Shown piece after piece: positions 992 to 10,661 of a DNA stretch of 10,685 nt. Under the pieces are notes generated by a model. The model worked only from the letters and a program-made list of their open reading frames with translations, was not told the DNA's origin and did not search any database. The translations under genes were made by a program, and so were the position numbers. Source of the stretch: Candidatus Lindowiibacteriota bacterium (lineage in GTDB: Bacteria; Lindowbacteria; 2-12-FULL-62-27); NCBI GenBank assembly GCA_023249255.1, contig JAHFCY010000106.1, forward strand, positions 1 through 10,685. Reading direction: 5' to 3'. The first letter of the stretch is position 1. The number at the start of each line of letters is the position of its first letter.

Positions 992-1459
992 TCAGGCGGC
1001 CTGCTTAAAAACGACGTCGACCGGGCAATCCAGCGCGGCCAGGAGGCGGATCATCTGGTCGATGGTTTTGTGGGTGAAGGTCTGATCGAGGAGACGGTAG
1101 AGCTGGACGGGGGACGTATGGAGCCGGCGGGAGACTTCGCGTTTGCTGATCCCTCGCTCCTCTAAAAGTTTTTTGGCTTTCAAGGACAGTTTATACAGGA
1201 GCATTTCGCGAAGATAGTCGGAATCCTTGTTGTAGTCGAACACCTGATCCAGGAGGATCGTATCCTCTTTACCGGACGCCAGCATGTAGGTGAATCCTTC
1301 GCCACCGACCTCTGTGTCTGCATGGACATCGGCAATACCATCCTCCGCCGACGGTTTCACCCGGAGCCGGGAATAGGGATACTCAAGCCGCCGGGAGGCG
1401 GCAGTAACTATCTCGAAACATTTTTTTCTATTGTTCGCGAAAACTTTCTTGATTTTCAT
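992..1459 (-). CDS. HTH-domain antitoxin-like protein, second gene of a toxin-antitoxin-like pair
   Basis: This is a 155-residue protein starting MKIKKVFANN. The frame is open for another 30 residues upstream, but ATG 1459 is the likely start: it is preceded by a good AGGAAGG ribosome binding site and forms an ATGA overlap with the stop of the upstream gene. Residues about 10-75 form a beta-rich N-terminal domain that I do not recognise by name. Residues about 93-145 (KLLEERGISKREVSRRLHTS onward) look like a Cro/XRE-type helix-turn-helix followed by a C-terminal helix ending in DCPVDVVFKQ. The arrangement recalls HigA-like antitoxins that bind both partner and operator. I recall proteins of this layout in Deltaproteobacteria beside DUF4160 genes; that is memory, not a search. 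The gene lies antisense inside a phage head operon and stops one base from the portal stop. It may repress its own operon from the AT-rich region near 1660-1705. An alternative is a plain regulator without antitoxin function. Confidence 0.72.
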   Translation of the reverse strand: MKIKKVFANNRKKCFEIVTAASRRLEYPYSRLRVKPSAEDGIADVHADTEVGGEGFTYMLASGKEDTILLDQVFDYNKDSDYLREMLLYKLSLKAKKLLEERGISKREVSRRLHTSPVQLYRLLDQTFTHKTIDQMIRLLAALDCPVDVVFKQAA

Positions 1460-1647
1460 AATAGCCCTTCCTTTCTGAGAGTCTCGATCATTTTCCTCAA
1501 CTTTTTTGTGATCTTGCCCTTGATCGCCACGTTTTCGTCCAGGTCCCACTTCAAAACGAGTTTCCCATCCCTATAAACGTGGACGTGGTGGCCATGGTCG
1601 CCCACCCAACTCAAGAAAATGTAATTCCCCCTCCGTATCTTGCCCAC
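1456..1647 (-). CDS. DUF4160-type small protein, putative toxin partner
   Basis: This is a 63-residue protein. The only reasonable start is GTG at 1647; the frame is closed by a TAG further upstream and contains no ATG there. No clear Shine-Dalgarno precedes it. The sequence has the DUF4160 pattern: a short strand ending in NYIFLSW, a histidine cluster HGHHVHV at residues 18-24, then YRDGKLVLKWDLDE and a basic C-terminal helix (KITKKLRKMIETLRKEG). DUF4160 proteins are usually about 70-90 residues and commonly sit beside a DUF2442 or HTH gene, where they are predicted toxins; the biochemical activity is not established. The stop overlaps the start of the HTH gene (ATGA), so the two are likely translationally coupled, toxin-like gene first as in higBA. 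The toxin role is inference from this pairing. Confidence 0.72.
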   Translation of the reverse strand: MGKIRRGNYIFLSWVGDHGHHVHVYRDGKLVLKWDLDENVAIKGKITKKLRKMIETLRKEGLL

Positions 1648-1717
1648 ACGGGAAGCGTACCAAATATGTAACTATTTGTCGAATTGTCCGAAAAAATAAT
1701 TCTTGACATCCCGCCAA
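1648..1717 (-). promoter_or_regulatory. Candidate promoter/operator region of the toxin-antitoxin-like cassette
   Basis: This is the only AT-rich non-coding patch in a GC-rich window, and it separates the divergent cassette and protease genes. It contains the inverted repeat CAAATA-N6-TATTTG at 1661-1678, ending 14 bases upstream of the GTG start, and a short direct repeat TTGTC-GAA-TTGTC at 1676-1688. On the - strand a weak -10-like CATATT (1663-1668) overlaps the inverted repeat, so a repressor bound there would block transcription. The -35 match is poor. An operator for the HTH protein is inference from position and symmetry only. Confidence 0.35.
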
Positions 1718-2884
1718 ATGTCACGCATTGCACCGCGCATGAAGACGGACACGGGCGTGGATTTCCGGTTTCATACGGGGCAGGTCGAAATTTTCACCAA
1801 GCAGGATGAGCTGGGGAATGAGATGCGGTTCCTGCGCGGGGTGGCGTCGGACGACAAGATCGACCGGCACGGGGAGCGGTTCAGCAAGAATGCGCTGGCG
1901 AGGATGGCGGAGACGGCGAAGGCGAACCTCACGCTGTTCGGAGATCATTTTCATTCCTGGGAAAATACGCTCGGCCGGGCGGTCGAGGCGGCGGTCAATC
2001 CACAAGGACAATTCGAGGTTGTGTTTCAGCTTGAGAACGAGGAGGCCCAGCCGAAGATCCGGCAGCTTTGGGCGAAACTCATGGGCAAGACCAAGCTGGC
2101 GCTGTCGGTTGGCGGGCGGATTCTCAAGACGTTCATCGAGGACGCCGGCGGACAGCAGGTGCGGGTGCTGGATGACATTGAACTTTTGGAAGTGTCGATC
2201 GTCGGGATCCCGGCGAACCCGCGGACTTGGGTGGAGGCGATTGTGAAGTCGATGGAAGAGCCGGGAGAAAAACAAAATCGGGAGGAAAAAATGGATGAAA
2301 TTCAGACGCTGAAGGCGGAGATCGAGCGGTTGACCGCGCGCGCAGGCGAGCTTGAGAAGGAGGCTTTGCAAGTCACAACCGAGCGCAACCGGTTGAAGGA
2401 TCAGGTCGGGAAACTGGAAGGCGACATTCAGGAGAAGGATGCGGCGCTGGCGAAGATTCGCGAGAAAGCGGATGGCCTTCAGGCCGAGTTCGACCGGCTG
2501 TCCAACGCGCTCAATGAAATGCAGGCGGCTTATGATGACCTGCGCGCGAAATACGAACAAGCACAGCCGGCGGTCATGGCGGGAAAGAAATACCGCGATG
2601 ACCTGGCATTTGAGGCGCACCGGCTCGCGGGGCTTGTCGAGGGGAACGGATTCAATTCGGACAACACGAAGACGAAGCTTGCGGCGCTGTCGATCGACGA
2701 TCTCAAGAAAGAAATCGACGGACTGCGAAAGCGCGTGGACGAGAAGTTTCCGGCGGCCGGTCAGTCTATCCATGCGCCGTTTGACGGCCAACACGCCGGC
2801 GACGATCGGCAGGCGAAAGTGCGCGACATGCTGAACGAGGGCGCGCCATTATTCCAAGATAGGAGAGTGAATTCTGATGGCTAA
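1718..2884 (+). CDS. Prohead protease (S78/HK97 type) fused to a scaffold-like coiled coil
   Basis: This protein matures the procapsid by cleaving scaffold and capsid proteins. The start is uncertain: TTG 1703, ATG 1718 and ATG 1739 are all in frame and none has a clear ribosome binding site; 1718 is used here. Counting from TTG 1703, the protease domain spans about residues 20-180. The catalytic histidine lies in FGDHFHSWENTLGRA (H82 or H84), the serine in KLALSVGGRI (S135), and a conserved acidic residue in LLEVSIVGIPANP (E163), matching the His-Ser-Glu pattern of HK97-type proteases. Residues about 190-290 are a long charged coiled coil with heptad leucines. The remainder (about 290-393) is charged and probably scaffold, with a hydrophilic C terminus. 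Protease-scaffold fusions are known in tailed phages. The gene overlaps the decoration gene by eight bases, suggesting coupled translation. No catalytic residue appears lost. Confidence 0.85.
   Translation: MSRIAPRMKTDTGVDFRFHTGQVEIFTKQDELGNEMRFLRGVASDDKIDRHGERFSKNALARMAETAKANLTLFGDHFHSWENTLGRAVEAAVNPQGQFEVVFQLENEEAQPKIRQLWAKLMGKTKLALSVGGRILKTFIEDAGGQQVRVLDDIELLEVSIVGIPANPRTWVEAIVKSMEEPGEKQNREEKMDEIQTLKAEIERLTARAGELEKEALQVTTERNRLKDQVGKLEGDIQEKDAALAKIREKADGLQAEFDRLSNALNEMQAAYDDLRAKYEQAQPAVMAGKKYRDDLAFEAHRLAGLVEGNGFNSDNTKTKLAALSIDDLKKEIDGLRKRVDEKFPAAGQSIHAPFDGQHAGDDRQAKVRDMLNEGAPLFQDRRVNSDG
2281..2293 (+). promoter_or_regulatory. Internal ribosome binding site and start codon for a nested scaffold
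   Basis: GGAGG at 2281-2285 is followed by five adenines and an in-frame ATG at 2291. This is a near-ideal Shine-Dalgarno and spacing inside the protease gene, stronger than anything in front of the gene's own start. It lies exactly at the boundary between the protease domain and the coiled coil. Confidence 0.6.
2291..2884 (+). CDS. Predicted nested in-frame scaffolding protein
   Basis: An in-frame internal start at ATG 2291 would yield a 197-residue protein identical to the C-terminal half of the protease. It would begin MDEIQTLKAEIERL, a regular heptad coiled coil running to about residue 93, followed by a charged C-terminal region. Scaffolding proteins guide capsid assembly and are needed in far greater amounts than the protease. 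In phage lambda the scaffold Nu3 is made from an internal start inside protease gene C in the same frame. The strong internal ribosome binding site supports the same arrangement here. Independent production of the short form is inferred, not shown. Confidence 0.5.
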   Translation: MDEIQTLKAEIERLTARAGELEKEALQVTTERNRLKDQVGKLEGDIQEKDAALAKIREKADGLQAEFDRLSNALNEMQAAYDDLRAKYEQAQPAVMAGKKYRDDLAFEAHRLAGLVEGNGFNSDNTKTKLAALSIDDLKKEIDGLRKRVDEKFPAAGQSIHAPFDGQHAGDDRQAKVRDMLNEGAPLFQDRRVNSDG

Positions 2885-3242
2885 AGTCGGAGGTCCTTTG
2901 CGCGGCAGTCCGGTCGTCACAGCGACGGCGCCGAACGCGGGGACGGTGAATTTATCGGAAGGACAGGCAGTGTCGTTCAACGGGAACTATACCGTCGTGA
3001 ATAGCCTGGATGGGACGGAAGTTCACGGGCAAGTGCTGGACAAGCTGGTGAACAAGGACGGCGCGCTGACGGCGGTCGTCATGAACGGGGTGCTTCGGTT
3101 TTCCTATGTGGGCGCGGCACCGGTGGTGGGCCAGTCAATCGCGGGAAGCGCGACGGCCGGCAAGGTCAAAGCGGCGGCCACGGGCCGATGGCTTGTGATT
3201 GCGGTGGACACGGCGAGCACGACCGTGGACGTAGAAAGGTAG
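2877..3242 (+). CDS. Putative capsid decoration / cement protein
   Basis: This is a 121-residue protein between protease/scaffold and major capsid genes, the usual place for a head decoration protein such as lambda gpD or a DUF2190-type capsid cement. It is rich in Gly, Ala, Val and Thr and is predicted all-beta, with repeated short strands (GTVNLSEGQAVSFNGNYTVV; ALTAVVMNGVLRFSYVG; AAPVVGQSIAGSATAGKVKA). The pattern 'VVMNGVLRF-Y-GA--VVGQSI' resembles the DUF2190 pattern of a central 'G-a-G--v' core and a C-terminal 'A---a---V-V' strand. There is no signal peptide or membrane segment. An AGGAG at 2861-2865 lies 11 bases before the ATG, and the start overlaps the protease stop by eight bases. 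The stop is TAG, and the next gene begins nine bases later in the same reading frame. The family call is by composition and position. Confidence 0.6.
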   Translation: MAKVGGPLRGSPVVTATAPNAGTVNLSEGQAVSFNGNYTVVNSLDGTEVHGQVLDKLVNKDGALTAVVMNGVLRFSYVGAAPVVGQSIAGSATAGKVKAAATGRWLVIAVDTASTTVDVER

Positions 3243-3251
3243 GTCGGCGAC

Positions 3252-3878
3252 ATGAAAACAACGGAACTGATGGAAAAGATGGTCGACAAGATTGAGTTTT
3301 TCACGCAGGACGCCGGGGCGCTCAAGGATCTTCGGGGCGAGCCACTGTATTTCGAACTGAACCGGGTCGGGGCGACGTACGGGGAATATTTCAAGGTCAC
3401 GGGGACGAACATCCGGGACTACTGCCGGGACCAGTTCAAGATCGATCTGCCGAACTGCACGATCGAGAAGTTTTTCTCGTCCGACCCGAACGCCAAGTGG
3501 CTGTTTCCGGACGTCGTGCGCGAGGGCGTGCTGTCGGGCCTGCGGCACCGGCCGATTCACAATCGTCTCGTCGCGAGCGAGGAAACGGCGGACGGCAACT
3601 CGTATCAGGTGCCGTACGTCGACGAGAAAGAAAACGAGGCCGAGGAAGAGACCCGCGACGTGGCCGAAGGCGCGGACATTCCGGAGAGCGAGATCAAATA
3701 CGGCGACCGGATCGTCGTCATCGGCAAGAAGGGGCGAGGGATCATCGCATCCTACGAGGCGATGCGCCGGATGAAGATCGACATGCTCCGTGTCCACCTC
3801 GAACGGATCGGGCAGAGGGTCGGAATCCAGCTCGACAACCGCTGTGGCGATATCCTGCGGCTGGGCAATTCAGCCTAG
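3252..3878 (+). CDS. Major capsid protein (HK97-fold type), N-terminal part up to an in-frame TAG
   Basis: This is 208 residues preceded by a GGTAGG-like ribosome binding site. It corresponds to the N-terminal arm, E-loop and spine helix of an HK97-fold capsid protein. The segment WLFPDVVREGVLSGLRHRP (residues about 83-101) and the acidic region with EGADIPESEI (139-148) followed by VIGKKGRGIIASYEAMRRMK match the layout in which the E-loop leads into the long spine helix, here about residues 166-202. The frame then meets TAG at 3876-3878, right after the spine helix. Sequence 3' of the TAG continues in the same frame with the missing A- and P-domain parts, so the 208-residue product alone would not be a complete capsid subunit. 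Possible causes are a nonsense mutation, a sequencing error, readthrough or amber recoding. The whole frame 3252-4298 would encode 348 residues, a normal size for the family. Confidence 0.75.
   Translation: MKTTELMEKMVDKIEFFTQDAGALKDLRGEPLYFELNRVGATYGEYFKVTGTNIRDYCRDQFKIDLPNCTIEKFFSSDPNAKWLFPDVVREGVLSGLRHRPIHNRLVASEETADGNSYQVPYVDEKENEAEEETRDVAEGADIPESEIKYGDRIVVIGKKGRGIIASYEAMRRMKIDMLRVHLERIGQRVGIQLDNRCGDILRLGNSA
3876..3878 (+). other. In-frame TAG interrupting the major capsid gene
   Basis: The codons read GGC AAT TCA GCC TAG TCC GCG CCG AGC. Upstream is the end of the spine helix; downstream is SAPSAIAVITPGALTYEDL, the usual entry into the A domain. No frame change is needed to join the halves. 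In relatives as I recall them this loop often reads NGDGN; here it reads RLGNSA before the TAG, so the loop may also carry a small deletion. The base after TAG is T, which is not a classic leaky context. Confidence 0.8.
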
Positions 3879-3938
3879 TCCGCGCCGAGCGCAATTGCAG
3901 TCATCACGCCGGGCGCCCTCACGTACGAGGACCTGACC

Positions 3939-4298
3939 ATGGGTTTCGTCGAACTCATGGACAACCGCAACTTCACGCCGACCAACATTCTCTGCAGCGC
4001 AACGACCAAGCGGAAAATCCTCAACATGCCGGAATTCAAGGACCCGCTCGTGTTTGATTTTTCGCGGACGGGCAAGACTCCAAGTCCGCTGGGCCTGACG
4101 CTGGACGCGCTCCGGAGCCAGCCGGACAATCAGGTGACGATCCTGGACAAATCGTTCGCGATCGTGAAGGTCACCGAAAACGACGTGACGGTGGAGAGCG
4201 ACAAGCTCATCAGCAAACAGTGGGACCGGTCGTACGTCACGCTGAATGTGGATTTTGCGGTTTTGTACAAGGAGGCGCGGGTGGTAATTCAGATTTAA
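3939..4298 (+). CDS. Major capsid protein, C-terminal part (same frame, after the TAG)
   Basis: The frame is open from 3879 to TAA 4298; the first ATG is at 3939, giving 119 residues if translated separately. GAGG at 3927-3930 lies eight bases before this ATG, so internal initiation is possible, though the match may be chance. The protein carries the C-terminal half of an HK97-fold capsid subunit: helix EDLTMGFVELMDNRNFTPTN (starting before the ATG), then the common ILCSATTKRKILNMPEFKDP segment, an SPLG turn, and the closing strands FAIVKVTENDVTVE and YVTLNVDFAVLYKEARVV, which resemble P-domain strands at the end of such proteins. The C terminus looks natural. The TAA overlaps the addA stop on the opposite strand by four bases. 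Most likely this is the second half of one broken or read-through gene, not an independent gene. Confidence 0.7.
   Translation: MGFVELMDNRNFTPTNILCSATTKRKILNMPEFKDPLVFDFSRTGKTPSPLGLTLDALRSQPDNQVTILDKSFAIVKVTENDVTVESDKLISKQWDRSYVTLNVDFAVLYKEARVVIQI
4295..4298. other. Tail-to-tail stop codon overlap between phage capsid and addA
   Basis: The + strand TAA at 4296-4298 and the - strand TAA at 4295-4297 share bases, so the phage block and the repair block meet without any intergenic DNA. I see no terminator hairpin, tRNA, repeat or integrase at the boundary. Confidence 0.8.
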
Positions 4299-7200
4299 CG
4301 AACGGAATCTTTCGCAGCGTTAATTTCGACAAGCACGCCGGTGGCTGTATACAAAAGGCCGGAACGGATAGGCCGTGGTCTGAAAATCTTTGTGTCGGTC
4401 AGTATGCTGGCGTAGCTTTGGAGTTGTTTCATGTATACAGGCGATGGGCTGGGATCCCGGCCTTTCGGCGGGACGTCGGTTTTGTAATCGATCACCCATA
4501 TCTCTTTTTCGCCGATGCACAGAAGGTCAATGTAGCCGATGTCGAGATAGCCGTCGGGACGGATGGCGGATACGGGGTACTCAGAGAATTTATCGCCATG
4601 AATCTTTGATACCGCCGACCATGCACGCTCGACATCGGCGACGGCCTCGGCGAGGTGGGTGGTCAATTGACATTCCGCCGCACATCGGGAGACGATTTCT
4701 TGACCCGTACCGGCTGCGCCGTTGGCCAGCATCTGCAAGGCGCGATGCACCGTGAGGCCGAAAACGGCGCCGAATCGGCCTTCGGATTTGTCTCGGCGGA
4801 ATTTCTCGGACGAATCCTCTTCGGTCTCGATTTCCATTCGCGCGGTCGCGGTGATTGCCCGCGGCGCGGCTTCCGGGCGAATCGCCGTCACGAGGCTTTT
4901 TTTCCATTTCTTCTCGCACGGGTCCGCGGAAATGGCGGGGGCCGGCCGAAACAGTGGCTGCTCTTTCGACGATCCGGCCCACGACGGAATTCTGCCGGGA
5001 GTGAATGCGCCAATGGTCTGGACGGTCTTCGCACATTCCGACATCAGCGGTTTGTAAAGAAATTTGTCCGACGCGGAAGCAGGCCGGCACAGCACGAGCA
5101 AATCCCGCGCGCGCGTGACCGCGACGTACGCCTTGCGAATCATTTCCGCATCTCCAAACGATTTGTCCCTTTCACGGAGAGCCGCGCCGGCCGGGACTTC
5201 GCCTTTCACTTCGGTCAGCCGGATAACTGCTTCCGGTGTGCCCTTCGCCACGCTTGCCATCCAGGATTTCGAATCACTGTGTGTTTTTTCCTGAAAGACA
5301 TCGGCCAGAATAACGACTGGATATTCAAGGCCCTTGGCCTGATACACCGTCGTGAATCGTACAATGTCGTCACTCACGGGTTCCGGCGCATCCATTTGAG
5401 GCGGGCCATCGATCCATTCACGCAGATCCAACGTTACTGCATCAAAGTCCAGTCCACTCCGCGATCTCATGTCCAAAATATTCAGTAATTCCTGAATTTT
5501 CGCCAGTGTCTGCGCGCCATTGGGACTGCCCAAAACAGTGGCGACACATCGCGTGCGATCCAACAGGTCGCGCGCGGTTTCGAAGGCCGGACGCTGAAGA
5601 CGGCGGAACCGGAGGTCGCTCAGAACCTCCTGCGCTTGCTGAAAAGCCTTTGACTCACCGGCGACATCGTCCATCGAGAGGATCCAAAACGGCGGGCGAA
5701 AATATTGGGCGAGCGCCGGGCCGTCGGCGGAATCGGCAATCGCGCGAAGCGCCAAAATAATGGCCCGGACGGCGGGGTCTCTGGCGAACACAGAACCGCC
5801 GCGTGCGGCGTAGGGGATTCCAAATCTGTCAAATTCGGCAAAAATCCGGTTCCAAGACGTCGTCGTCAGACTCAAAACCGCAACGTCCCGCCATCGCATC
5901 GGCCGCGTGCTATCCGTTTCCTGGTCACGCACCCGGAATCCGGAAGTTTTAAGATGCAGAACATACCGGGCGAGCGATTCGGCTTCGATGGATCGCCATG
6001 CGTCAACTTTCAATTTATCGTCTCCGTTACCTGCGATGGGGATCAGATGGACGGCGGGTCCGTTGCCGGCTGCACTTTCCGTCAGCGCCTCATAAAAAAC
6101 CGCCCCGTTTTCCGGATCAAAAATTTTTCCGTTCTCGACCTTGCCCATGATTTTCTCGAATCGCTCATTGACAAAGTTGACCAGCGGCGCGACGCTTCGG
6201 AAATTCGTTGTGAGAGAACGCGTCAGCGCCCCGTTTTTCTCAAGCCATTCCCGGAATTTTTCGTACGCCGATATGTCAGCGCGCCGGAATCTGTAAATCG
6301 ACTGTTTCGCGTCGCCGACAATGGTGACCGACCCCGGCCGTGGTTTGCCGCCTGCTTTGACGCTGACCAACAAACGGACGATATCTGCCTGAACCGGATC
6401 GGTATCCTGGAATTCGTCGACAAAAATGTGATCAAACATGCCGGAATAGAATACCCGATGTTCTTCCTTGCGCAAAACATCGCGGAGTTTGAGAAGCAAG
6501 TCCAGCTGGTCGACAACCTCATGTTCGCGTTTGACCCGTTCGTATATGGCACATACCGCCGGACCCAGCCGGGCCAGCCTGGCGCACATCCATTGCATGA
6601 CCGGCGTGGAAATTCCCGGGATGCTCGATTCCTTCAGACTTTTTTTCAGCTCCCAACCCGCCTCATCATTCAAAAAATCTCTTTCCTTTTGCAAAGTCTC
6701 AAATCCGGATTCACCGAGCAGTCGAACGGCGCGCAGGATGGATATGCCGTCTTTGGCGGCCACGACTCGATCCAGATCGAAAGACAGTCCCTGAAGAAGC
6801 CGAAAACCGGGAGAGGTTGGATCTAGAATACGGATGGATTTGGCGGCCACGCGCGCCATTTTCCTGATCTCGCTGAAATCCGGCGCAGACGGCGATTTAA
6901 AATCCGGCTGGACGTCGCGGCTTTCGATCATGGATTCAACCAGTGAATCCAAGCCATGTGTTTTCGCGAATGACCCGCCCGACGTTTCAAGCGCATAACC
7001 CGCCAAGATGTAATCATTCAGAGTATTTTCGAGTTCTTTCGCCAGCCCGGAATTCATACTTGCCGCCTCCGTCATGTTGCGTTCTTTCGCCGCCCGGCAA
7101 AGAATCTCAAACGTGATGGAGACCAACTCGCCCGTGTTTTCCTCTATGCCGTATGCGGGACTGAGTTCGGCCTCCGTGGGCCGCAATTTCAACAAGCGGT

Positions 7201-7537
7201 CGGCAAAACTGTGAATGGTGCCGATAAACGCGTTGTCGATGCCTGATAGCGCGTCCTGCAACAAAGCGCGATCATCCGGTTTGAGTTTGCCGCTTTCGAG
7301 TTCAGCCAATATTTTTTCCAGAATGCGATATCGGAGTTCTCCGGCAGCGCGGCGCGTGAACGTGACCGCCGCCAGCCGGTGGATGGGTGCGGGATTGCGG
7401 GAGTCCGCCGGCGCCAGCAGATTCAGAAACCTGTCGACGATGATCGCCGTCTTGCCGGTGCCCGCGCCCGCGTCGATGACAACATTTTGTTTCCGTTCTG
7501 CGCGGATTTCTTCACGCGCTTTCTCGTCAGCCAGCAT
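4295..7537 (-). CDS. addA: AddA-type (RecB-like) ATP-dependent helicase-nuclease subunit
   Basis: This is the SF1A helicase and 3'-strand nuclease subunit of an AddAB-type complex that resects double-strand breaks for RecA loading. ATG 7537 (1080 residues) is chosen because a GGGG stretch precedes it and it overlaps addB by 11 bases; TTG 7573 would add 12 residues. Residue numbers here count from TTG 7573. Helicase motifs in order: Walker A AGAGTGKT 35-42; Ia AAVTFTRRAAGEL 68-80; GTIHSFADRLL 118-128; Walker B VDEFQD 385-390; III VGDAKQSIYRFR 419-430; IV TTNFRS 455-460; V QAKGLEYPVVIL 745-756; VI AYVAVTRARDLLVL 815-828. The C-terminal PD-(D/E)XK nuclease has H943 in FGLTVHRAL, D1016 in GYIDLL, D1029 and K1031 in VIDYKTD, and Q1050/Y1054 in KQLQSY. 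All motifs are intact and the length fits AddA (about 1,000-1,250). It follows addB and ends tail to tail on the phage capsid gene. Confidence 0.92.
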   Translation of the reverse strand: MLADEKAREEIRAERKQNVVIDAGAGTGKTAIIVDRFLNLLAPADSRNPAPIHRLAAVTFTRRAAGELRYRILEKILAELESGKLKPDDRALLQDALSGIDNAFIGTIHSFADRLLKLRPTEAELSPAYGIEENTGELVSITFEILCRAAKERNMTEAASMNSGLAKELENTLNDYILAGYALETSGGSFAKTHGLDSLVESMIESRDVQPDFKSPSAPDFSEIRKMARVAAKSIRILDPTSPGFRLLQGLSFDLDRVVAAKDGISILRAVRLLGESGFETLQKERDFLNDEAGWELKKSLKESSIPGISTPVMQWMCARLARLGPAVCAIYERVKREHEVVDQLDLLLKLRDVLRKEEHRVFYSGMFDHIFVDEFQDTDPVQADIVRLLVSVKAGGKPRPGSVTIVGDAKQSIYRFRRADISAYEKFREWLEKNGALTRSLTTNFRSVAPLVNFVNERFEKIMGKVENGKIFDPENGAVFYEALTESAAGNGPAVHLIPIAGNGDDKLKVDAWRSIEAESLARYVLHLKTSGFRVRDQETDSTRPMRWRDVAVLSLTTTSWNRIFAEFDRFGIPYAARGGSVFARDPAVRAIILALRAIADSADGPALAQYFRPPFWILSMDDVAGESKAFQQAQEVLSDLRFRRLQRPAFETARDLLDRTRCVATVLGSPNGAQTLAKIQELLNILDMRSRSGLDFDAVTLDLREWIDGPPQMDAPEPVSDDIVRFTTVYQAKGLEYPVVILADVFQEKTHSDSKSWMASVAKGTPEAVIRLTEVKGEVPAGAALRERDKSFGDAEMIRKAYVAVTRARDLLVLCRPASASDKFLYKPLMSECAKTVQTIGAFTPGRIPSWAGSSKEQPLFRPAPAISADPCEKKWKKSLVTAIRPEAAPRAITATARMEIETEEDSSEKFRRDKSEGRFGAVFGLTVHRALQMLANGAAGTGQEIVSRCAAECQLTTHLAEAVADVERAWSAVSKIHGDKFSEYPVSAIRPDGYLDIGYIDLLCIGEKEIWVIDYKTDVPPKGRDPSPSPVYMKQLQSYASILTDTKIFRPRPIRSGLLYTATGVLVEINAAKDSVR

Positions 7538-10500
7538 GTTTGGCGCCCCGCTTTTTGGGTTTGCCGCTGTCAAATGTTTTTTCCGGTGGTTTCCTCAAGG
7601 CAAAAAATTTCGCTGCCGCGCCGCCGCCCGCCTTCATTTTTTCTTCCGCCAACACCCGATTATCTCCGCAGACCGGCTTGAACGGACAGCGCTCACAGTC
7701 CTTCTTATTTACCGTGTGCGGAAATGTTCCCTCCTTGAGAAGGCCGGCGGCCAATTCCAGCCACTCTTTGCCATGTTTCAGCAGGACGTCAAAATCGCCG
7801 CCGATATATGATCGTTCAACGGGAACCTGAGAGGACACATACATGTAACCGGCGCCGACCGGAGGGGGAACGCCCATGTCCGCGGCTGTTTTACCAAGGG
7901 CCAGAGCATAGACCGCCAATTGTATATCCAATACAGGGTCAGGCGGGTCGTCCTGTTTTCGGAAATGCGGTTTGCCGGTTTTGAAATCCCGCACAAATGA
8001 TTTTCCGCCAACCACATCGATGCGATCCATGATTCCTTTAACCAACAGGCCGGACAGATTCAGATCTCCGGCGACTCCGAACGATTTTTCGATGCCGCCT
8101 ATACGGACCATCGGTTTACGATTCCATTCAAACCGGATAACGGATTCGACATCGCGTTCAAGCCGTTCGCGCTGAGCTGACCGATTGTTTTCGCCAACGA
8201 GAGGGTAAAAGCGGACAAGCGCGGCGAATTGCAGGCAGGCTTCCACTTTGGCCGCATCAAGCCATTGATCCAGCGATTTATGGCTCTTGTAGAAATCACC
8301 GCCACACTTTTTAAAAAAGGATTCCATCACGGCATGAAAAAGACTTCCGTATGTCATCGCATCCAGATTATTGATGTCCGGCAATTCGGATGGCTCGCCC
8401 CAGCCGATCACTTTTTCAAAGAGGTACCGGCGCGGACATTCCATCATCGTGCGAAGCGCCGTGGCGGACAGCGGCTTTTCTTCCAACCGGGCGGATCGCA
8501 AAAATCCGTCGAGAGGTCCGGGGTTTGGCGCGGCGGCCTTTGCCAGAAACTCCGCGATATCTTTGGAGTCGGACCGGGGGATCAGCATTTTGAAATACCC
8601 ATCGCGCGCAATTCTGCCGGGGCCAAAATAATCCCGACGAACGGCGGAGGATCGCAAATATTTTGGATCGAATTTCACCGTTTCGGCGTTCGGACGGCGC
8701 AACGCCGCCGCAATTTCCAAAAAAAGGCTGGACGGTTCATGGACCGTGCCGTCCAGCGTCTGGCGGGGCGCGCTGAAAATGATGCTCTCCTTCGCGTGGC
8801 TGACGATCCGATGAATGTTCTGTATGGAAGCAAGCGGCTGATGCGCTGCCAGACGAATGGGGTGATTCAGGAGCAATCGGTCCGCATCCGGCAGAAGCGG
8901 GTCATCCGAGGCGGCGCCGCCGACCGATCCCTCTGCCAATCCCATGATACGGACGGCGTCAAATGGAATTCCCGCGGCCTTGTCCGGCGTGCCAATAAAT
9001 ATTCTCGCCTCGCCAAATCGGCCGACAGAGCGTCTTAGAGAGCGGATCTGGCGATGGATGACAGCAAGAGCGTCGTTCCCTGTTCGATTCAGGGAAAGAA
9101 AAGGTATGATCGAATCATCGAGATCGTTGAACACGCCCGCATTGTCGAAGACAACCGTAAAATTTTTCCAAAATGATTTCATTGCCGGCCACAGGCGATC
9201 CAATGATTCTCCTCGTGAGACCATTTCCGCGAGATTCACCAATGAGCGCACGGCCGGGAGAACCGCTTTCATCGGGTCCAGATAGCGTTTCGCGTTCCTG
9301 ACCTCGCGCTCGAGTTTTTCGGATGCATCCGTCAATTTGACCAATTCCTCCAGATGGGCAATGCGGCGTTCGAACCCGGTCACCCATTCCGCAGCTCCCT
9401 CCGGCCGGGCCGGCGACCCACCGAGAGTTCCGCAGACCCAGACGATTTCCATCGAATCCGATAATGTCAGATGCCGGTTCTCGAACTTTCCGACCGGCTT
9501 GTCAAACTGCAGAAACGGGAGAACTCGGAAAAACTCATCGACGCGCAGGCCATTTTGGAGCGCGAGGATCAGCGCCTGAAATCGCTGGCCGATTTGAATG
9601 TCCGTGACGGGCAGACCGCCGGCGACATGAACAGGCGGGTCATCTGCGGGCCAGGGCAGACGCGCGAGGCGGCTGTAGAGCATCCCTGACAGTGGATCGC
9701 TTTCGGGAACAATGATAGCGATTCGTTCGAGACGAGTACCCCCGGTAACACAGTCACAGACCCAATCGACCGCGGCGGCGATTTCCTCGGCAAGGCTGCC
9801 ATGCAATTCAGCATGCACCGTGCGGTCAGGACCCTTTGAAACCGGCCGGCCCTTTCGGCCCAGTTCGTCCGGGGCGGCAAAAAGATATTTTTTCAGGATA
9901 CAAAGTTCGGTGGTCTCGGAAGCTGGCGGATTTCGGCTTTCAGGCGCGAGGCCTCGAAGCCGCGCTGCCATTTGCTTCAATCTCTCTTCTTCCTCCAAAC
10001 GGCGCGGGTTAGCCGTCAGAAACGCTGCGTCGAGATTCGGAACAGCCGAGAGAAATTCCAATTCGGATTCATCGGGATGGCGCAGAAGACATGCGAAAAC
10101 CCGTCCTGCCGGACGTGCCACGACCTTGGCCGCGTCGCGGAGTATCTTGTGTCGGTCGGCGTAGGGATGATTGAGGGAGTCGAGAACAGCCGCAAGGTCG
10201 AGGAATCTGCCGCGGGATATCTGATCCGTCGCCGACTTGGCCGCGGCCCGGAGGGCGGCGCTGTCTACGCCGGCGGCGCGCAGGTCGTCAAACGTTCGGG
10301 CGAATGCATCCGCGAATCCGGCGCCGGTACGAAGCTGTTCGATGTCGAAGTATTTCAATTTGCCTTGAAGCGCGTGCCCGTCAAAAAGTTCCTCCAGCAT
10401 GACAGGCTCAACGTTTTCAGCGCCGGGCAGCGCCGGTTTGCCGGCGAGAAGCAGGATATCCGCGGCAAACCGGACCGGCCGCATGAAGCGCGTGCCGATC

Positions 10501-10661
10501 AGGAGACTGCGCCAATCGGGATTGGACGCGATCTCGCGGCGGAACGCGTGGGTGATCCGCTCCGCGGGAACAAGAACGGTTCGTTCCGCTGATGGGGACT
10601 TCAGAGAAATATCAGCCCATATACGGACAATTTCCTCGAACGCGTTTGAAAGGTACAGCAT
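7527..10661 (-). CDS. addB: AddB-type nuclease subunit with iron-sulfur cluster
   Basis: This is the 1044-residue partner of AddA; it would cut the 5' strand and, in AddAB complexes, scan for the recombination hotspot. ATG 10661 has an AAAGGA ribosome binding site seven bases upstream. The C-terminal RecB-type nuclease is complete: C742 in MMECPRRYLFEKVIG, H776 in YGSLFHAVMESF, D879 in KGIMDRID, D892 and K894 in VRDFKTGK, and Q914/Y918 in DIQLAVYAL. C989, C992 and C998 (DCERCPFKPVC) complete with C742 the four-cysteine 4Fe-4S staple of AddB and related nucleases. The N-terminal 700 residues are the inactive helicase-like region; I see no Walker A there, unlike Bacillus AddB, so ATPase activity is probably confined to AddA. 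The region GRFGEARIFIGTPDKAAGIPF and VRIMGLAEGSV (about 547-580) matches the motif V-like segment of AddB/RecC-type proteins. The last codons are basic (KPKKRGAKHAG) and overlap the start of addA, indicating an operon. Confidence 0.9.
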   Translation of the reverse strand: MLYLSNAFEEIVRIWADISLKSPSAERTVLVPAERITHAFRREIASNPDWRSLLIGTRFMRPVRFAADILLLAGKPALPGAENVEPVMLEELFDGHALQGKLKYFDIEQLRTGAGFADAFARTFDDLRAAGVDSAALRAAAKSATDQISRGRFLDLAAVLDSLNHPYADRHKILRDAAKVVARPAGRVFACLLRHPDESELEFLSAVPNLDAAFLTANPRRLEEEERLKQMAARLRGLAPESRNPPASETTELCILKKYLFAAPDELGRKGRPVSKGPDRTVHAELHGSLAEEIAAAVDWVCDCVTGGTRLERIAIIVPESDPLSGMLYSRLARLPWPADDPPVHVAGGLPVTDIQIGQRFQALILALQNGLRVDEFFRVLPFLQFDKPVGKFENRHLTLSDSMEIVWVCGTLGGSPARPEGAAEWVTGFERRIAHLEELVKLTDASEKLEREVRNAKRYLDPMKAVLPAVRSLVNLAEMVSRGESLDRLWPAMKSFWKNFTVVFDNAGVFNDLDDSIIPFLSLNRTGNDALAVIHRQIRSLRRSVGRFGEARIFIGTPDKAAGIPFDAVRIMGLAEGSVGGAASDDPLLPDADRLLLNHPIRLAAHQPLASIQNIHRIVSHAKESIIFSAPRQTLDGTVHEPSSLFLEIAAALRRPNAETVKFDPKYLRSSAVRRDYFGPGRIARDGYFKMLIPRSDSKDIAEFLAKAAAPNPGPLDGFLRSARLEEKPLSATALRTMMECPRRYLFEKVIGWGEPSELPDINNLDAMTYGSLFHAVMESFFKKCGGDFYKSHKSLDQWLDAAKVEACLQFAALVRFYPLVGENNRSAQRERLERDVESVIRFEWNRKPMVRIGGIEKSFGVAGDLNLSGLLVKGIMDRIDVVGGKSFVRDFKTGKPHFRKQDDPPDPVLDIQLAVYALALGKTAADMGVPPPVGAGYMYVSSQVPVERSYIGGDFDVLLKHGKEWLELAAGLLKEGTFPHTVNKKDCERCPFKPVCGDNRVLAEEKMKAGGGAAAKFFALRKPPEKTFDSGKPKKRGAKHAG

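Follow-up and report, generated by a model that had tools for sequence, protein, structure and literature searches.

The major capsid gene of a phage-like element in the genome of a Candidatus Lindowiibacteriota member, an uncultured bacterium of groundwater type, is interrupted by one in-frame TAG codon. The element is probably resident and has no other capsid gene, and the TAG is most likely a nonsense mutation of recent origin. The window, as the whole analysed stretch of 10,685 nucleotides is called here, is the complete contig C31 of a draft genome (MAG) of 366 contigs and 3.35 Mb that is 88.7% complete and 3.9% contaminated. Its features are collected in Table 1. Such a stop would be a common event early in the decay of a resident phage, unless it is a base-calling error, and a special reading of the genetic code is not supported.

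Table 1. Features of the 10,685-nucleotide window and the matches that identify them
Feature	Coordinates	Strand	Evidence
Portal protein gene, 5' end cut by contig end	1..990	+	phrog_3753 portal E 4.4e-39; Portal_Mu E 5.7e-7
HTH gene	992..1549	-	HTH_26 E 6.5e-6
DUF4160-like small protein, putative toxin partner, overlaps HTH ORF	1456..1647	-	DUF4160 E 0.0045
Head maturation protease, coiled-coil scaffold tail, intact, no internal stop	1703..2884	+	Peptidase_S78 E 1.7e-8; phrog_80 E 4.8e-15
Small virion/decoration protein, intact, TAG as normal stop	2877..3242	+	phrog_4588 E 1e-18; same end in three relatives
Major capsid gene, N-terminal part to TAG (208 aa)	3252..3878	+	phrog_3922 E 4.8e-29
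Premature in-frame TAG, codon 209	3876..3878	+	Glu codon in three close relatives
Major capsid gene, C-terminal part (139 aa), natural TAA	3879..4298	+	phrog_3922 C-terminal part E 6.9e-15
addA-type helicase-nuclease, convergent with capsid gene	4295..7573	-	UvrD-helicase E 4.4e-45, PDDEXK_1; 68% identical gene in G001:C35
addB-type nuclease	7527..10661	-	PDDEXK_1 E 9e-33; homologous gene beside addA in G001:C35

Translation of the capsid region (3252-4298) yielded 348 codons with a single internal TAG and a natural TAA at positions 4296-4298, which confirmed that the two halves lie in the same frame without a frameshift. Residues 1-208 and residues 210-348, each searched alone, match their own part of the phrog_3922 profile (major head protein), and the split frame is therefore a true capsid gene and not a chance ORF. 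The part downstream of the TAG is protein-like up to its natural C terminus, as the original prediction had stated. The read-through sequence matches profile positions 71-357 of 362 (E 2.6e-47), and Pfam Phage_capsid_4 (PF25209) also matches. An AlphaFold model of the read-through protein was built with 27 aligned sequences (pLDDT 80, pTM 0.75), and its best match among solved structures is HK97 Head II (PDB 2ft1, E 5e-13). In this model codon 209 is placed just past a long helix (176-204) and ahead of a strand (213-216) and a further helix (225-238), which agrees with the location proposed for the break, a loop that connects the spine helix to the A domain. Membership of the HK97-fold phrog_3922 family is supported by a profile match over most of the length and by an HK97 fold with spine helix, P and A domains; a single continuous coding sequence, the third feature considered, is lacking due to the TAG.

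Intact capsid genes of the same length were found in three close relatives. They are 94% identical in a groundwater MAG (G002, JACQOF010000030), 93% identical in Candidatus Lindowbacteria RIFCSPLOWO2_12_FULL_62_27 (G001, contig MFPR01000017), both of the same family as the genome of the window, and 84% identical in a contig labelled Acidobacteria (L004). Alignment of these sequences, which had been proposed as a means of identifying the residue replaced by the stop, returned glutamate and not glutamine at codon 209 in all three. More distant homologues (22 IMG/VR viral contigs, 23-34% identity) are all continuous; they were recovered by an alignment-based scan, as a scan with the single capsid sequence returned no relatives from IMG/VR. 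In nine of the 22 the motif S-E-S-A-P is present, which is similar to T-E-S-A-P in the two closest relatives. No viral contig matched when the same locus was searched with any base allowed at the first codon position. In the genome of the window the capsid gene is single-copy, with no second copy detected elsewhere.

The age of the stop was estimated from the substitutions that have accumulated in the gene. Both halves of the capsid gene, as well as the capsid genes of the relatives, are under purifying selection (pairwise dN/dS of 0.06-0.11 between window and relatives). Lineage-private changes were counted by parsimony with L004 as the sole outgroup, and seven replacement and 31 silent changes are private to the lineage of the window, compared with eight and 30 private to the two intact relatives (Fisher p = 1). 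Without constraint since the stop, replacements would be expected 2.4-3.2 times as fast as silent changes. As both halves are still conserved to this degree, the stop is either very recent or not real. A simple model gave a median of 4% for the share of the branch spent inactive, with a 95% upper limit of 13%, a rough figure that depends on parsimony counts and one outgroup. On the lineage of the window the C-terminal half carries six replacement and 13 silent changes and the N-terminal half one and 18, a difference that is not significant (p = 0.09).

In the sequence of events proposed here, the single-copy capsid gene of an integrated phage-like element would have gained one nonsense mutation at codon 209 very recently. 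Translation would most likely end after 208 residues, and the product would lack the A domain and the second half of the P domain. No shell subunit would then be made, and the element would be unable to form its own heads. The remainder of the gene would then still look functional only for lack of time to decay. We infer that the truncated product has no function and that loss of the capsid is tolerated by the host because the element is resident. The element was judged resident since it adjoins addAB and since the element of the same type in a relative has an integrase beside tRNA-Thr. A capsid gene had been thought a surprising place for a stop, an assessment that does not hold if, as is probable, the element is integrated; its contig also carries host-type genes. 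Known integrated or decaying prophages with pseudogenised structural genes offer a close likeness: phage head genes lie beside host-type genes, an integrase is found next to a tRNA in G002, and a remnant of the capsid gene, about 60 codons from the C-terminal end, is present in G001 on a contig (C35) other than that of the intact copy. The element of the window differs from them in that only one lesion was found, its genes are still under purifying selection and decay has barely begun. Internal stops were absent from portal, protease, decoration, X, Y and TerL genes in the genome of the window (with portal and TerL truncated by the ends of their contigs), which speaks against decay, and the claim of decay rests on a single base. 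The stop itself is of little weight; it shows the capsid gene of a prophage when inactivation has only just begun.

A rival explanation is an assembly, base-calling or strain-consensus artefact, in which most cells would have a sense codon and the contig would show an error or a minority base. Such an artefact is rather unlikely, though its probability is far from negligible. It is favoured by the draft state of the MAG, by the full conservation of both capsid halves and by the absence of any other detected lesion. In addition, contigs C245 and C128 of the same assembly (end of L038 and start of L037) share a 242-bp overlap inside TerL that is only 97% identical, and this points to more than one element variant in the assembled population. 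On the other hand, consensus errors from short reads are rare per base, and local misassembly is not indicated because the 2.6 kb surrounding the stop align collinearly with two relatives. The preferred reading remains a recent nonsense mutation. Among the four options that the original prediction had left side by side, recency is favoured, a sequencing error retains a smaller share of the likelihood, and a suppressed or read-through codon is opposed by the tRNA, PylS and terminator data presented below.

Functional suppression, recoding or programmed read-through of the TAG, either as in code-15 phages or via pyrrolysine, was found to be very improbable. Both capsid halves are conserved and in frame, and TAG recoding in structural genes does exist among phages (PMC10607447); the TAG-recoding crAss-like, Lak and phAss-1 phages share with the window an in-frame TAG in a late structural gene. 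However, phAss-1 has TAG in 41 ORFs together with three suppressor tRNA genes (PMC10607447), while here one TAG was detected, a suppressor was not found and TAG serves as a normal terminator. A suppressor tRNA had been suggested as a check, and a CUA anticodon was absent from all 39 tRNA candidates in the genome of the window (88.7% complete, with the element partly assembled). One candidate without an ARAGORN call (C290:39054-39126; L093 55-127) aligns in Rfam with a loop of CUUCUAA and the anticodon UCU; reading CUA would require a shifted, broken stem. This tRNA-like sequence has two acceptor-stem mismatches, is degenerate and could be a remnant of an integration site. The best match of a tRNA-Sec family search was a tRNA-Ser(TGA) gene, and PylS was not detected above cutoff in the genome of the window, with only sub-threshold matches as in most control genomes.

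The use of TAG elsewhere in the element also argues against recoding. TAG is the normal terminator of gene X and of the decoration gene, which lies directly upstream of the capsid gene and in the same frame. Efficient read-through would therefore fuse the decoration protein to the capsid, and translation of the whole window with code 15 indeed opens the capsid gene but creates this fusion as well. None of three hallmarks of code 15 (in-frame TAG in many genes, a CUA suppressor tRNA and avoidance of TAG as terminator) was observed; the other element genes that were checked have no internal TAG, and the relatives encode glutamate instead of glutamine at codon 209. A reading frame that is conserved on either side of a stop is not evidence for read-through.

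Two separate functional genes, one for a product of 208 residues and one for a second product that would be re-initiated downstream at ATG 3939, can be dismissed as extremely improbable even though 119 codons are open from this ATG and GAGG lies 8 bases ahead of it: all 25 homologous ORFs examined are continuous with none ending at codon 209 before a separate second gene (the pattern that would have contradicted the original prediction), the split point falls inside one HK97 fold, and the same internal Met is kept within the intact gene in two of the three close relatives, so that the ATG is a by-product of conserved residues.

The genes of the window follow the standard order of HK97-fold capsid systems (portal, protease, decoration, capsid). 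The capsid gene of the window is set apart by its stop, every homologue examined being continuous. The portal protein shares 90-91% amino acid identity with its relatives (dN/dS about 0.1). The description of an otherwise intact head operon had to be amended, as the contig start cuts the portal gene and two minus-strand ORFs (992-1647) separate it from the protease gene. These ORFs encode the HTH and DUF4160-like proteins and form a putative inserted toxin-antitoxin-like pair; the DUF4160 match scores 17.6 bits, which is under the curated cutoff of 23. In the relatives the gap between portal and protease contains other genes or none, and G002 has an unrelated gene of 251 residues there. At the other end the capsid gene is directly followed by addAB, and its stop overlaps the end of the convergent addA gene. 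No meaningful repeats that would mark an insert were detected in the window. The addAB-type pair (4295-10661) adjoins the capsid gene here and lies about 4 kb from the capsid remnant in G001 (C35; L040 15034-19999, L041 3-1415). A second, more distant AddA-like gene is present in both genomes.

Comparison of the genomes gave the element order small protein, TerS, portal, insert, protease, decoration, capsid, insert, X, Y, TerL and lysis genes, the latter comprising an amidase (by inspection) and a holin (phrog_3427). In the genome of the window the element is split over contigs C31, C262, C245 and C128. The head genes are collinear across three genera though pushed apart by inserts, and G001 and G002 both retain the order and orientation of the genes. 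In G001 (C17; L032-L034, about 15150-41600) the gap between portal and protease spans 26 kb and includes T2SSE/T2SSF genes (type II secretion-like) and a signal peptidase, and in G002 (C146; L035 6745-19244) the gap between capsid and X contains 12.5 kb of unrelated genes, including a peptide ABC transporter. A 133-bp direct repeat with 86% identity lies near both ends of the latter block (L035 6949-7081 and 18443-18575). The far side of the G002 element carries an exonuclease, an anti-restriction protein, a RepA_C protein and the integrase next to tRNA-Thr. Directly upstream of X in the genome of the window (C245; L038 6669-13637), genes for an SNF2 helicase (ZacC/PDC-M27C/DrmD-like) and a PLD-like protein of the ZacB/DrmC type look like a defence system in the slot between capsid and X.

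The inserts could be cargo of a phage-derived element, or they could reflect fragmentation of old prophages by later chromosomal insertions. In its boldest form, which we consider quite doubtful, the cargo interpretation holds that cargo lands in the head operon of a mobile phage-derived element of this bacterial family. The element would then represent a new type of phage-like element that bears cargo and may lack a tail, and the TAG copy would be one that has just lost head formation. In this reading the inserted blocks (addAB, SNF2-type and PLD-like defence genes, a peptide transporter, secretion genes) measure 0.7 to 26 kb and occupy two slots, one from portal to protease and one from capsid to the gene that follows it. 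The head genes remain collinear and under selection, and a tail module is not recognised. Two tail families were sought: sheath matches were absent from three genomes, and tape-measure matches from the window's own genome. Distant relatives such as L100 and L108 are found on contigs of 74-76 kb with contiguous genes beyond the capsid that appear tail-like by inspection only. This phage-like element of Candidatus Lindowbacteria and relatives, with head genes spread by long inserts yet conserved, is more useful than the stop. If the inserts are carried as cargo, they would illustrate the way in which repair and defence genes are transferred in an uncultured lineage.

The element resembles capsid-forming PICI satellites and gene transfer agents in its head genes, for which no tail module was recognised with the two tail families sought, and in its putative cargo genes, and the capsid model is also a fold match to the capsid of the cf-PICI EcCI2. 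The element differs from both in having holin and TerL genes, very long inserts and no known helper dependence. Between the same genomes, synonymous divergence was lower for the capsid (dS 0.34-0.54) and portal (dS 0.42-0.59) genes than for rpoB (dS 0.82-1.06), and the element has therefore probably moved between lineages. As this is not the pattern of simple vertical inheritance, a gene transfer agent passed on by vertical descent is disfavoured. X and Y of the window's genome are closer to L004 than to G001, and the element is therefore mosaic. The RepA_C plasmid replication protein beside the element integrase in G002 (L036 17391-18158) has a counterpart (38%) in the genome of the window, on contig C93 (L043 8433-9362), and the same contig contains a second copy of a 137-residue element protein.
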